From positions 1-64,000 of the forward strand of contig NZ_JAGQDH010000005.1 in the NCBI RefSeq assembly GCF_018069895.1: a DNA stretch of 64,000 nt. The letters are read 5' to 3'. The notes beneath the pieces were generated by a model. The model had not been told where the DNA came from, made no database searches, and was given only the letters and a program-made list of their open reading frames with translations. The DNA comes from Roseovarius autotrophicus (GTDB lineage Bacteria; Pseudomonadota; Alphaproteobacteria; Rhodobacterales; Rhodobacteraceae). The position numbers and the translations under genes are program-made. Of the stretch, positions 39,283 to 42,323 are shown piece by piece; position 1 is the stretch's first letter; each line of letters starts with the position of its first letter.

Positions 39283-40071
39283 ATGACCGGAGAATTGTCC
39301 CCCATCGACAAGGCCAAGTTCGTCGCCGCAAAACGCTCGGTGGATTTTATCGAGGACGGGATGCGCGTTGGCCTCGGCACCGGCTCTACCGCCGCGTGGA
39401 TGGTTCGCTGTCTCGGAGAGATGGTGCGCCATGACGGGCTTCGCATCAAGGGTGTGCCTACCTCAACCCGCACCGCAGAGCTTGCCCGCGAGGTCGGCAT
39501 CGAGGTCATCAGCCTCGACGAGGCGAAATGGCTTGATGTCACCATCGACGGCGCGGACGAGTTCGACGCCAATCTCAACCTGATCAAGGGCGGCGGCGGG
39601 GCGCTGTTGCAGGAAAAGATCGTCGCGACGGCCTCGGACCAGATGGTCGTCATTGCGGATGTGGGCAAGGAGGTCGAGGCGCTCGGTGCCTTCCCGTTGC
39701 CGGTCGAGATAATCCCCTTCGGCTGGCAAACCACGAAATCTCTGGTCGAGGAACTGCTGATCAACATGGACGTGCTCGGGCGGGAAACAACCCTCCGCAT
39801 GAACGGCGACCGCCCCTTCATCACCGACGAGGGTAATTACATCGTCGATCTGCACCTTGGCCGCATCGGCAATCCGCACCAACTCTCCATGGCACTCAAC
39901 CAGATGCCGGGGGTGGTGGAGAACGGGCTTTTTCTGGATATCTGCGACGTGGTGATCCTCGGCTTTGGTGACGGGCGGGTGGAAACCCGCGATATCAACG
40001 ACGGCACCGTGGCCCGTGACCGCATCGACTTTGTCGAGAGCGAGAACCTTTTCGCCGATCTCGACGACTGA
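39283..40071 (+). CDS. rpiA: Ribose-5-phosphate isomerase A
   Basis: This 262-aa cytoplasmic enzyme interconverts ribose-5-phosphate and ribulose-5-phosphate in the pentose phosphate pathway. The family motifs are GLGTGSTA (phosphate loop), DGADEFD and [11 protein letters not shown] with the catalytic residues. The start at 39283 follows GGAGGTGCC. An in-frame extension to 39217 overlaps the TerB-like gene end and is unlikely. It is followed by rbfA 38 bp later. Confidence 0.96.
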
Positions 40072-40109: not shown

Positions 40110-40517
40110 ATGCCCGCCATGGCACGACATCATAAACATGACGGCCCCGGCCCCTCGCAGCGCCAGTTGCGGGTGGGCGAACTGATCCGTCGCACCCTGT
40201 CGGACGTGCTCATGCGCGGCGACATCCATGATCCCGACCTCAACCGCCTGTCGATCACCGTGGGCGAGGTGCGGCTGTCGCCCGATCTCAAGATCGCCAC
40301 CGCCTATGTCATGCCACTGGGCGGGCAGGGCGCGGAGGAGGTGATCGAGTTGCTCGCTCGCAATCGCGCCGAATTGCGCCGCATCATCGGGCGCAAGGCG
40401 GGGCTCAAGTTCACGCCAGACCTGCGCTTTCGTCTCGATGAGACCTTCGACCAGATCGACGAGACCCGGCGGCTTTTTTCGGATGAAAAGGTGCGGCGGG
40501 ATGTGGAGGGCGAGTGA
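40110..40517 (+). CDS. rbfA: Ribosome-binding factor A
   Basis: RbfA helps 16S rRNA mature on the 30S subunit and is linked to cold adaptation. The 135-aa protein has the KH-like fold with [17 protein letters not shown], then [14 protein letters not shown] and [23 protein letters not shown] lies 4 bp before the ATG at 40110; the second ATG (40119) is too far from it. TruB follows downstream, as in many bacteria, but here an extra gene lies between. Confidence 0.93.
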
Positions 40518-40540
40518 GTCGCCCGCGCCCTTTGGGCGGG

Positions 40541-40623
40541 TCATTGCCCGGCTTGACCAGGCAATCTCTCAGGCTGGCCAGAGCAGTTGGCAAGAGATGC
40601 TCCGGTCAAGCCGGAGCATGACG
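40541..40623 (+). repeat. Composite hairpin repeat element overlapping a start codon
   Basis: The element has two stem-loops. ATTGCC (40543-40548) pairs with GGCAAT (40560-40565) around GGCTTGACC. ATGCTCCGG (40597-40605) pairs with CCGGAGCAT (40611-40619) around TCAAG. The loops hold GGCTTGACC and its complement GGTCAAGCC, so the whole unit is itself an inverted repeat. Units like this recur between genes in Rhodobacterales, from memory. The right arm supplies both CGGAG and the ATG at 40618 of the next gene. Confidence 0.65.
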
Positions 40624-41379
40624 CGCGCTCTTTTGCGCGGTCCCGCCCTTGCCCTCCTGCTTGCGCCCCTTCCCGCCGCTGCGACTTCCTGTCGCGCGAT
40701 CACCGTCGAGGGCGTAGGATACACCCTGTGCGAGGCCGATGCCGCGCGCGACGATATCCGCCTTTTTCTCAACGATCCCGCCAGCGATGCGCCGCTCGGC
40801 AGTTTCTCCAATATCAATCGGGTTCTGAAACCACAGGGCAAGCGGCTCGCCTTCGCAATGAACGCGGGCATGTATCACGCCGACCGAAGCCCCGTGGGCC
40901 TTTTTATCGAGGACAGGCGGGAACGAGCACCCCTCATCACCTCTGCCGGTCCTGGCAATTTCGGGATGCTGCCCAACGGCGTGTTCTGCATCTCCGAGAC
41001 CGGTGCCCATGTCATCGAAGCGCACCGCTTCGCGCAGTTGTCCCCCGCCTGCCGCTTTGCCACCCAGTCCGGGCCAATGCTGGTGATCGACGGCGCGCTC
41101 CATCCCCGTTTCCTTGCGGACAGCGACAGCCTGCATATCCGCAACGGTGTCGGCACCTCCACCGATGGGCGGCGCGTGTGGTTCCTGATTTCCGACGCGC
41201 CGGTGAATTTCCACCGCTTCGCGCGCGTGTTCCGCGACCATCTCGGCGCGCCGCAGGCGCTCTACTTCGACGGCAAGGTGTCTCGGCTTCACGCGCCGGG
41301 GCTGAACCGCTCCGATCTGGGCTTTCCGCTCGGGCCGATGGTGGGGGTGGTGGTTGACGCCGGGGACGCGCTCGATTAG
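40618..41379 (+). CDS. Exported phosphodiester glycosidase (NAGPA/DUF2233) family protein
   Basis: This 253-aa protein has a signal peptide (residues 1-21, ending PAAATS). The NAGPA-like domain shows FAMNAGMYHADRSPVGLFIE, LPNGVFCISE and a C-terminal GPMVGVVV. The human relative removes N-acetylglucosamine from a phosphodiester, and in bacteria the role is unclear. The chosen start gives a clean signal peptide; an earlier ATG at 40597, in the repeat's left arm, would add a charged N-terminus. Its start codon and ribosome site lie in the upstream hairpin repeat. Confidence 0.8.
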   Translation: MTRALLRGPALALLLAPLPAAATSCRAITVEGVGYTLCEADAARDDIRLFLNDPASDAPLGSFSNINRVLKPQGKRLAFAMNAGMYHADRSPVGLFIEDRRERAPLITSAGPGNFGMLPNGVFCISETGAHVIEAHRFAQLSPACRFATQSGPMLVIDGALHPRFLADSDSLHIRNGVGTSTDGRRVWFLISDAPVNFHRFARVFRDHLGAPQALYFDGKVSRLHAPGLNRSDLGFPLGPMVGVVVDAGDALD

Positions 41380-41417: not shown

Positions 41418-42323
41418 ATGGCACGAAAGCCCAAGGGGCGCGATATCTCGGGATGGCTGGTGGTGGACAAACCCGCAGGGCTGACCTCCACCGCCGTCGT
41501 CAACAAGGTCAAATGGGCGCTTGACGCGCGCAAGGCGGGCCATGCCGGCACGCTCGACCCCGAGGCGACCGGCGTTCTGGCCATCGCGCTTGGCGAGGCG
41601 ACCAAGACCGTTCCCTACATCACAGAGGCACTCAAGGCCTATCGTTTCACCGTGCGCTTCGGGCAGGCCACCAATACCGACGATGCCGAGGGCGAGGTCA
41701 TCGCCGAGAGCGATGCACGCCCCACCGATGACGCGATCAAGGCCGCACTCGGGGTCTTTGTGGGCGAGATCATGCAGGTCCCGCCGCGCTTCTCCGCCGT
41801 CAAGATCGACGGTGAACGCGCCTACAAGCGCGCGCGCGACGGCGAGGAATTCGAGGTCGAAGCCCGCCCGCTCTGGGTCGAGGAACTGCTGCTCGTGGAC
41901 CGCCCCGGTCCCGATACCGCCGTGCTCGACATGGTCTGTGGCAAGGGCGGCTATGTGCGCTCCATCGCCCGTGATCTCGGGGCCGCGCTCGGCTGTCATG
42001 GCCATGTGGTCACGCTCCGCCGCCTCTGGTCCGGTCCCTTCGATGCCGAGGACGGCGTGAGCATGGAAACCATCGAGGCGCTCGCCCGCACCGGCGATCT
42101 TGACACCTATATTCGCCCGCTGGAGGAGGGACTGGCCGATCTGGCCATGGTCACCGCCACCCCCGAGGGCGCGGCGCGGTTGCGCAACGGCAATCCCGGC
42201 ATGGTGATCGCGCGGGACGTGGAGTATGGCGAGGAATGCTGGGCCGCGTTCGACGGTCGCGCGCTTGCCGTGGGGCACTACAAGGCCGGCGAGTTGCACC
42301 CCGTGCGCGTGTTCAACCGATGA
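41418..42323 (+). CDS. truB: tRNA pseudouridine-55 synthase TruB
   Basis: TruB forms pseudouridine 55 in the T loop of tRNAs. The 301-aa enzyme has [16 protein letters not shown] at the N-terminus. The catalytic Asp is in [14 protein letters not shown], and the C-terminal PUA domain completes the chain. AAGGGG precedes the ATG. Its stop overlaps the next gene by 4 bp. Confidence 0.96.

Follow-up and report, generated by a model that had tools for sequence, protein, structure and literature searches.

The window (the whole stretch of DNA analyzed, 64,000 nucleotides long) is the start of a 225-kb contig in a genome of 3.68 Mb, and carries the gene order rpiA - rbfA - NAGPA-family phosphodiester glycosidase - truB. 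The rbfA gene, encoding ribosome-binding factor A, spans 40110..40517 on the plus strand (PF02033, E 4e-24, and ORF list) and ends with the TGA stop codon at 40515-40517. The glycosidase gene is proposed to span 40501..41379 on the same strand (PF09992, E 5.4e-19, open frame), that is 292 codons plus stop, coding for a REP-encoded leader, a signal peptide whose hydrophobic stretch begins at about 40642, and a mature part. The downstream truB gene (41418..42323, plus strand; PF01509, E 6.8e-48) is found 3' of the NAGPA gene in 27 of 30 loci, the window's own included, the other three having no truB match in the stretch examined. The closest NAGPA proteins share 76-86% identity and, among five named contigs, come from four labelled Roseovarius and one labelled only Alphaproteobacteria.

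The interval between rbfA and the signal peptide is largely occupied by an inverted repeat (40540-40623), in which two CGTC-tagged REP units form an inverted dimer of 84 bp. The left unit (40540..40569, plus strand) has a stem formed by 40543-40551 and 40557-40565, and, according to an eight-copy alignment and pair counts, the tag GGTC replacing CGTC. The right unit (40594..40623) has its CGTC tag on the minus strand and a stem formed by 40597-40605 and 40611-40619. Nine stem positions and a 5-nt loop are found in both units, with one mismatch in the left stem. The spacer between the units measures 24 nt (40570..40593, plus strand), and exceeds that of the other seven own-genome dimers aligned. 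Two plus-strand ATG triplets of the right unit are in frame with the glycosidase gene, one at 40597..40599, which is AGG in the carrier L047, and one at 40618..40620, at the edge of the unit (complement of the tag CGTC plus AT; hereafter the edge ATG), kept in all the five genomes found to carry the insert. A third ATG, at 40501..40503 on the plus strand, lies inside the 3' end of rbfA and is an ancestral start codon, here proposed as the main one, as judged from its occurrence at the same place in many insert-free relatives and from its anti-SD pairing. It opens a run of 13 leader codons preceding the REP (40501..40539, plus strand; the first 17 nt overlap rbfA), identical in length and strongly diverged in the five carriers. 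A sequence-only reading of the locus had placed an intergenic hairpin at 40541-40623, with CGGAG and the start codon of the gene, namely the edge ATG, in its right arm. A hairpin is indeed found at 40540-40623 (a 110-nt segment has an MFE of -56.9 kcal/mol, z -3.86, one in 200 shuffles being equally stable), and the right arm reads CCGGAGC-ATG.

Other copies of the repeat are present in the same genome, so the objection that the element might not be repeated falls. A blastn search of the genome with the element returned 9 rows, the window itself included, and a covariance model search at least 87 rows at E<=1, most places being hit on both strands; the latter figure is a lower bound, 150 of 1,254 first-look candidates having been scored. 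At least 37 distinct places, mostly inverted dimers, make up the family in this genome, to the exclusion of about ten weaker or adjacent single-unit rows of the covariance search. Matches to the model were found in at least 33 of 60 genomes, own included (24 of 36 of the genus, 9 of 24 others), counts which are again lower bounds, as 85 candidates were scored per genome under stricter filters. The stop codon of a codon-usage ORF lies within 30 nt to one side at 24 of the 37 places, in agreement with the description of CGTC-tagged REPs in PMC3733652; the window copy sits 22 nt after the rbfA stop. The repeat is thus a dispersed palindromic one, as the sequence-only reading had supposed; its mobility, which that reading also entertained, is presumed.

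Eight full copies from the own genome align as back-to-back palindromic units (GTCAT-stem-loop-stem plus its reverse complement) separated by spacers of variable length. Taken as two small hairpins, they show 143 of 144 cells paired and 11 of 18 pairs changed on both sides. For four of five covariation measures none of 500 shuffles reached the observed value; for the fifth, counting further pair types, 103 of 500 did. The signal is lost in slid versions of the alignment. Stem changes in these copies are always two-sided, with no G-U intermediates in the 144 cells, a pattern in the aligned sequences that hints at upkeep of the palindromes at the DNA rather than at the RNA level. Rfam returned nothing at the gathering score over 40400-40750, only P17 being listed with 12.9 bits (gathering 45; E 0.46).

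The window element belongs to the class of CGTC-tagged REPs, since its tag, 9-bp stem, 5-nt loop and inverted dimer fit the published description, its copies covary, and many copies exist; the repeat is thus of a known kind. As described in the text of Di Nocera, De Gregorio and Rocco (2013; PMC3733652), such elements occur in alphaproteobacteria and carry CGTC, or else TGTC/CCTC, as a tag on one side, together with a stem of 8-9 bp beginning with A-T pairs, a loop of 4-5 nt and, in "most" members, CCA as 3' tail; they are dispersed, mostly as inverted dimers, just past the 3' end of genes, and are also found within ORFs, including N-termini, tRNA synthetases of other genera, and uvrA. The window element likewise is CGTC-tagged, has an AT-initial stem of 9 bp and a 5-nt loop, and forms an inverted dimer at the 3' end of a gene. 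Its tail, however, is CTC(T) rather than the CCA of the published consensus, a tail which is not strictly defining, and the GGTC of its left tag is a variant that the paper does not list. Neither Roseovarius, nor Rhodobacter, nor "start codon" occurs in the main text of PMC3733652; "start codon" is likewise missing from the main texts of PMC2229807, PMC12306157 and PMC10969869, and no title on a CGTC REP family in Roseovarius was found among the open-access PMC matches listed. Inverted pairs of short palindromes are shared with the REPIN/RAYT systems (PMC3116915). These feature a Y1 (REP-associated tyrosine) transposase, whereas the RAYT-type domain PF01797 had no match in the own genome, a control search being positive in 5 of 14 genomes.

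The position of the NAGPA start was monitored in relatives. Eighty loci were compared, of which 79 show both rbfA and the NAGPA gene (L060, with no rbfA in the stretch examined, was left out), 4 with the insert and 75 without. In the latter the distance from the rbfA stop to the mature-protein anchor (the residue aligned to the mature-protein cysteine of the NAGPA protein) is 52-94 nt in 71 loci, and 106, 125, 127 and 146 nt in the other four. A gap of 52-94 nt, if it is to accommodate an ordinary signal peptide, implies that the gene starts at or in the end of rbfA. In 47 of the 75 insert-free loci the first candidate start is between -20 and +8 relative to the rbfA stop and precedes the anchor by 15-40 residues; in 33 insert-free loci all ATG candidates lie in that zone near the rbfA stop, others having a GTG at -4 or an ATG farther upstream. 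In L042, the nearest insert-free relative among the loci compared (76%), an ATG is at the same place as 40501, and only TTGs, no later ATG, are met before the anchor. Judged from these positions, a NAGPA start inside or beside the end of rbfA is the ancestral arrangement. In the window such a start survives as ATG 40501, whose frame stays open across the REP and on into the signal peptide.

The insert is carried by the own genome (G000) and by L039, L040, L041 and L047, which over the 300 nt compared are identical to G079, G084, G015 and G081, respectively. A search of the genus found the gene in 80 of 84 genomes, the leader being matched from its first residue only in G000 and the four carriers; the other genus alignments listed begin at query residue 30 or later. 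The distance from ATG 40501 to the edge ATG is exactly 117 nt in all five carriers, with no in-frame stop and no gap among them, although the mean pairwise difference of this stretch is 0.24, near the neutral rate. All of five nearby non-coding spacers differ in length among the same genomes (for example 120/117/132/120/120 and 91/83/67/98/98; one spacer was computed from an rpiA start at 39286, the ATG being at 39283, and its length is off by 3 nt). From a single MAFFT alignment of the roughly 6 kb common to the five genomes, 22 gap intervals were counted in 362 spacer nt, which predict 4.6-6.1 in the 76-100 leader nt outside rbfA; none was observed (Poisson P 0.01-0.002, or 0.10-0.05 on the assumption of a true rate of half the spacer value). 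Gaps seen in the right-unit and signal-peptide part of the alignment accompany the longer L250 sequence. A length that does not change and a frame that stays open, amid spacers varying by indels, favor translation through the REP. Selection at the protein level is not visible in the leader, its pN/pS of 0.66 being equalled by one of the wrong frames (1.62 and 0.66); the wrong frame with 1.62 is also free of stops in all five carriers, and the one with 0.66 has six.

The two halves of the insert did not evolve alike. Against the window, the right unit shows 0 differences in 30 in L039 and L040, 1 in L041 and 4 in L047 (4-5 in any pair that includes L047); left unit plus spacer (54 nt), by contrast, differ at 5-22 positions per carrier pair, and fourfold sites of the NAGPA gene by 0.28-0.38. 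The difference in conservation between right and left has a Fisher P <=0.02 in 6 of 10 pairs, those not involving L047, and >0.18 in the 4 pairs with L047, in which ATG 40597 is gone and 3 of 9 right-stem pairs are broken, the gene still being open and the edge ATG kept. Except in L047, the right unit thus seems, from substitution counts, to be held by something other than the protein, and its near-invariance would be compatible with a second start or with a function as RNA. Homogenization by an identical copy is unlikely in the own genome, for which blastn listed no second full-length right unit exceeding 93%. In L039 (the same locus as L249) the left palindrome has switched arms and loop, from the CGG-CTTGA-CCG class to CGA-CCCTG-TCG, with retention of self-complementarity.

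Given the CGTC tag and a stem beginning with AT, the edge of any perfect CGTC REP reads ATGACG in the outward direction. Codon-usage ORFs served to screen all 37 own-genome places, and the frame was inspected at ten loci (eleven places). The edge ATG is in frame with a recognizable gene at 4 of the 37 places, i.e. in the window, L199, L151 and L207. In L199 (G000:C22:266469-266534) it lies in frame upstream of uvrA (UvrA domains; homologs in 20 of 21 genomes, own included), but homology begins at residue 12-40 from the edge ATG within the genus and at 43-49 in eight genomes outside it, and a later ATG is found at residue 43. In L151 (G000:C65:86425-86492) the gene encodes a metallophosphatase; alignments to its eight best homologs of the genus start at residue 8-28, and further ATGs follow at residues 17 and 29. 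Automatic annotation may put starts inside the REP in both cases, and more generally gene starts beside CGTC REPs may be miscalled, because a well-kept unit bears an edge ATG. L207 (G000:C11:499245-499323, minus strand) differs: its edge ATG is in frame with a gene for a PEP-utilizer domain, twelve same-genus homologs align from residue 5-26, the conserved part of the protein starts some 20-30 residues after the edge ATG, and the next start listed nearby is a GTG at residue 31. Alignments of this kind suggest that the L207 edge ATG may be the start of its gene, and a second candidate for a REP-supplied start. At L143 (FGGY kinase), L158 (glucose-6-phosphate dehydrogenase) and L202 (a weak alpha/beta hydrolase) the position of the Pfam domain agrees with a start beyond the REP. 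The family is not a usual supplier of starts, and the window is not provably unique.

According to the sequence-only reading, the repeat supplies the ribosome site and the start codon of the gene. The former part does not hold, as the GGAG of the right arm is only 1 nt from the edge ATG, too close to act as its SD, and the strongest anti-SD pairing available to this ATG with a spacing of 4-11 nt reaches -2.9 kcal/mol, in the window as in the other four carriers, against -6.2 at 40501 (-6.2 to -7.4 over the five). Values at ATG 40597 range from -1.5 to -6.2 in the four carriers possessing it. SDs are modest in the window (truB -6.6; rbfA -4.3 or -5.0, depending on which of two candidate starts is taken; terB -3.5; the rpiA control, -13.1, is off by one codon), so that -2.9 is weak rather than impossible. 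Conservation of ATG 40501 and of its SD is not independent evidence for its use, because this ATG overlaps rbfA codons. Nor is it the more accessible site: at 37 C the unpaired probability over the five carriers is 0.15-0.37 around 40501 and 0.11-0.34 around 40618, with 0.17 and 0.28, respectively, in the window. As to the start codon, the edge ATG does share the frame of the glycosidase-family gene, as claimed, but an ancestral start, also in frame, lies 117 nt upstream.

We consider it rather probable that the REP is an in-frame insertion which lengthened the N-terminal leader of a protein still translated from 40501. A CGTC-type REP dimer, its 84 bp being equal to 28 codons, would have entered this locus in the ancestor of a small subclade of Roseovarius; the insertion point lies 22 bp past the rbfA stop and, counted from the first base of the former NAGPA start codon, at 39 bp, the frame being preserved. 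Ribosomes would most likely initiate at the old ATG, beside the site of rbfA termination, and read through the REP; the precursor would carry a leader of 39 residues (13 old and 26 REP-encoded, up to the edge ATG) ahead of the signal peptide, and the leader would presumably be removed with the signal peptide at export. Such cleavage would account both for leader residues weakly constrained and for a frame kept open. The domestication of the repeat as a translation start, which the sequence-only reading had proposed, becomes doubtful, insert-free relatives starting at or in the rbfA end, that start being retained in frame, and the 117 nt being constant; the ancestral start and the constant open stretch make a protein beginning elsewhere the likelier case. 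Against read-through count the compact signal peptide encoded from 40618, and the edge ATG kept in all the carriers, even in L047 despite the decay of the surrounding arm. The n-region of about 47 residues that read-through implies is unusual for a signal peptide, and simple read-through gives no account of the near-invariance of the right unit in four carriers.

The same facts, together with the strong divergence of the upstream leader codons (5-22 of 39 positions per pair) and the possible parallel of L207, speak for a gene severed from its old start and initiated at the edge ATG, the hairpin region serving as a 5' leader which tunes translation. If true, a selfish repeat would have supplied the start of a gene. 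We find this unlikely, though worth keeping in mind, given the weak SD, the length and frame kept constant upstream of 40618, a start region mostly paired at 37 C (40501 being no better), and the example of L199 and L151, which have an edge ATG in frame and yet encode proteins that seem to begin later. Initiation both at 40501 and in the right unit, at 40597 or 40618, giving precursors with long and short leaders that mature to the same enzyme, would agree with 40501 and 40618 being conserved in all five carriers and in frame; the loss of ATG 40597 in L047 and the poor SD at 40618 make it more doubtful still. The sequence-only reading had also seen in the hairpin a thermosensor-like or ribosome-operated switch, hiding SD and start until melted by heat or by the passage of ribosomes. 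In RNA thermometers (ROSE, FourU) the start codon resides in a hairpin, and the helix over SD/AUG melts in the physiological range. The start within the 3' arm of a stable hairpin is common to both, and on warming from 10 to 55 C the unpaired probability of the three edge-ATG bases alone does rise, from 0.08 to 0.43 in the window and from 0.05 to 0.37 in L040. The window has, however, no well-spaced SD in the helix to be hidden, and no melting of the start region is predicted between 10 and 55 C: the mean unpaired probability of the -15..+15 region around ATG 40618 goes from 0.27 at 10 C to 0.29 at 55 C in the window, with a change of <=0.05 in each of the five carriers, so that the region as a whole stays shut. 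The ATG bases are still closed at 55 C in L039 (0.13) and L041 (0.05), and open at all temperatures in L047 (0.67-0.69), where the gene is open notwithstanding the three broken stem pairs. A start operated by temperature is not supported by predicted accessibility, and a switch of either sort looks highly improbable. The locus offers an insertion that can be compared with a nearly empty site in a relative, together with five carriers and a variant with a broken hairpin, in a genus that has cultured members; it lends itself to the question of whether bacterial translation crosses selfish palindromes or begins anew within them.

Reading of a REP in frame is met elsewhere in the same genome. One of the 37 places, L252 (G000:C65:95648-95716), lies inside valS (best NCBIfam match of the fragment query, NF004349, valine--tRNA ligase), and is read in frame as SSSGLTRGSQEAGDPRVKPEDD; this copy makes a read-through REP at the NAGPA leader plausible in the genus. 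In Rickettsia, palindromic repeats inserted in frame in protein genes are known as Rickettsia palindromic elements (RPE; Ogata et al. 2000, as described in PMC2229807, PMC10969869 and PMC3733652), two of which, RPE-4 and RPE-6, are assigned to CGTC families in the text of PMC3733652. The window REP lies in a stretch of open frame and constant length in 5 of 5 carriers, and would be an insertion of this sort if the proposed start at 40501 is the real one; the likeness is clear for the valS copy. RPEs, as presented in these sources, are Rickettsia-specific and 105-146 bp long, whereas the window REP measures 84 bp, resides in a Roseovarius-type host, and would contribute an N-terminal leader.

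The valS stretch was found in 76 of 84 genomes of the genus; G015, rated 100% complete, has no match to it at E<=0.001, and may have a different ValS or an assembly gap. The loop hosting the REP was resolved in 55 of the 76 by a first pattern and in 73 by a second, the remaining three being dropped (loops L253-L257 and L264-L334). A short loop of 15 residues (margins set in the analysis) is found in 20 of the 73 genomes, and at least one hairpin of at least 8 bp with a 5-nt loop in 11, own included, over a total of 6,015 nt of loop sequence; 17,520 nt of upstream valS sequence, used as control, contain two such hairpins. Comparison of these loops indicates that in-frame REPs are tolerated in the genus, seem to have been gained more than once at this site, and likely make of the valS loop a recurrent insertion site in an essential gene. 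The loops show in-frame REPs in an essential enzyme outside Rickettsia. A wider proposal, that the edge ATG in the near-invariant right hairpin is now a real start, sole or second, that L207 is perhaps likewise, and that CGTC REPs, entering the ValS loop in frame as well, supply new coding sequence generally among free-living alphaproteobacteria, is put forward tentatively and strikes us as rather doubtful. In most of the valS hairpins the loop letters are CTTGA/CTCGA or the complements of these, which CGTC REPs also have; those of G070 and G086 are different, and the dimers in the valS loop read SSSG...
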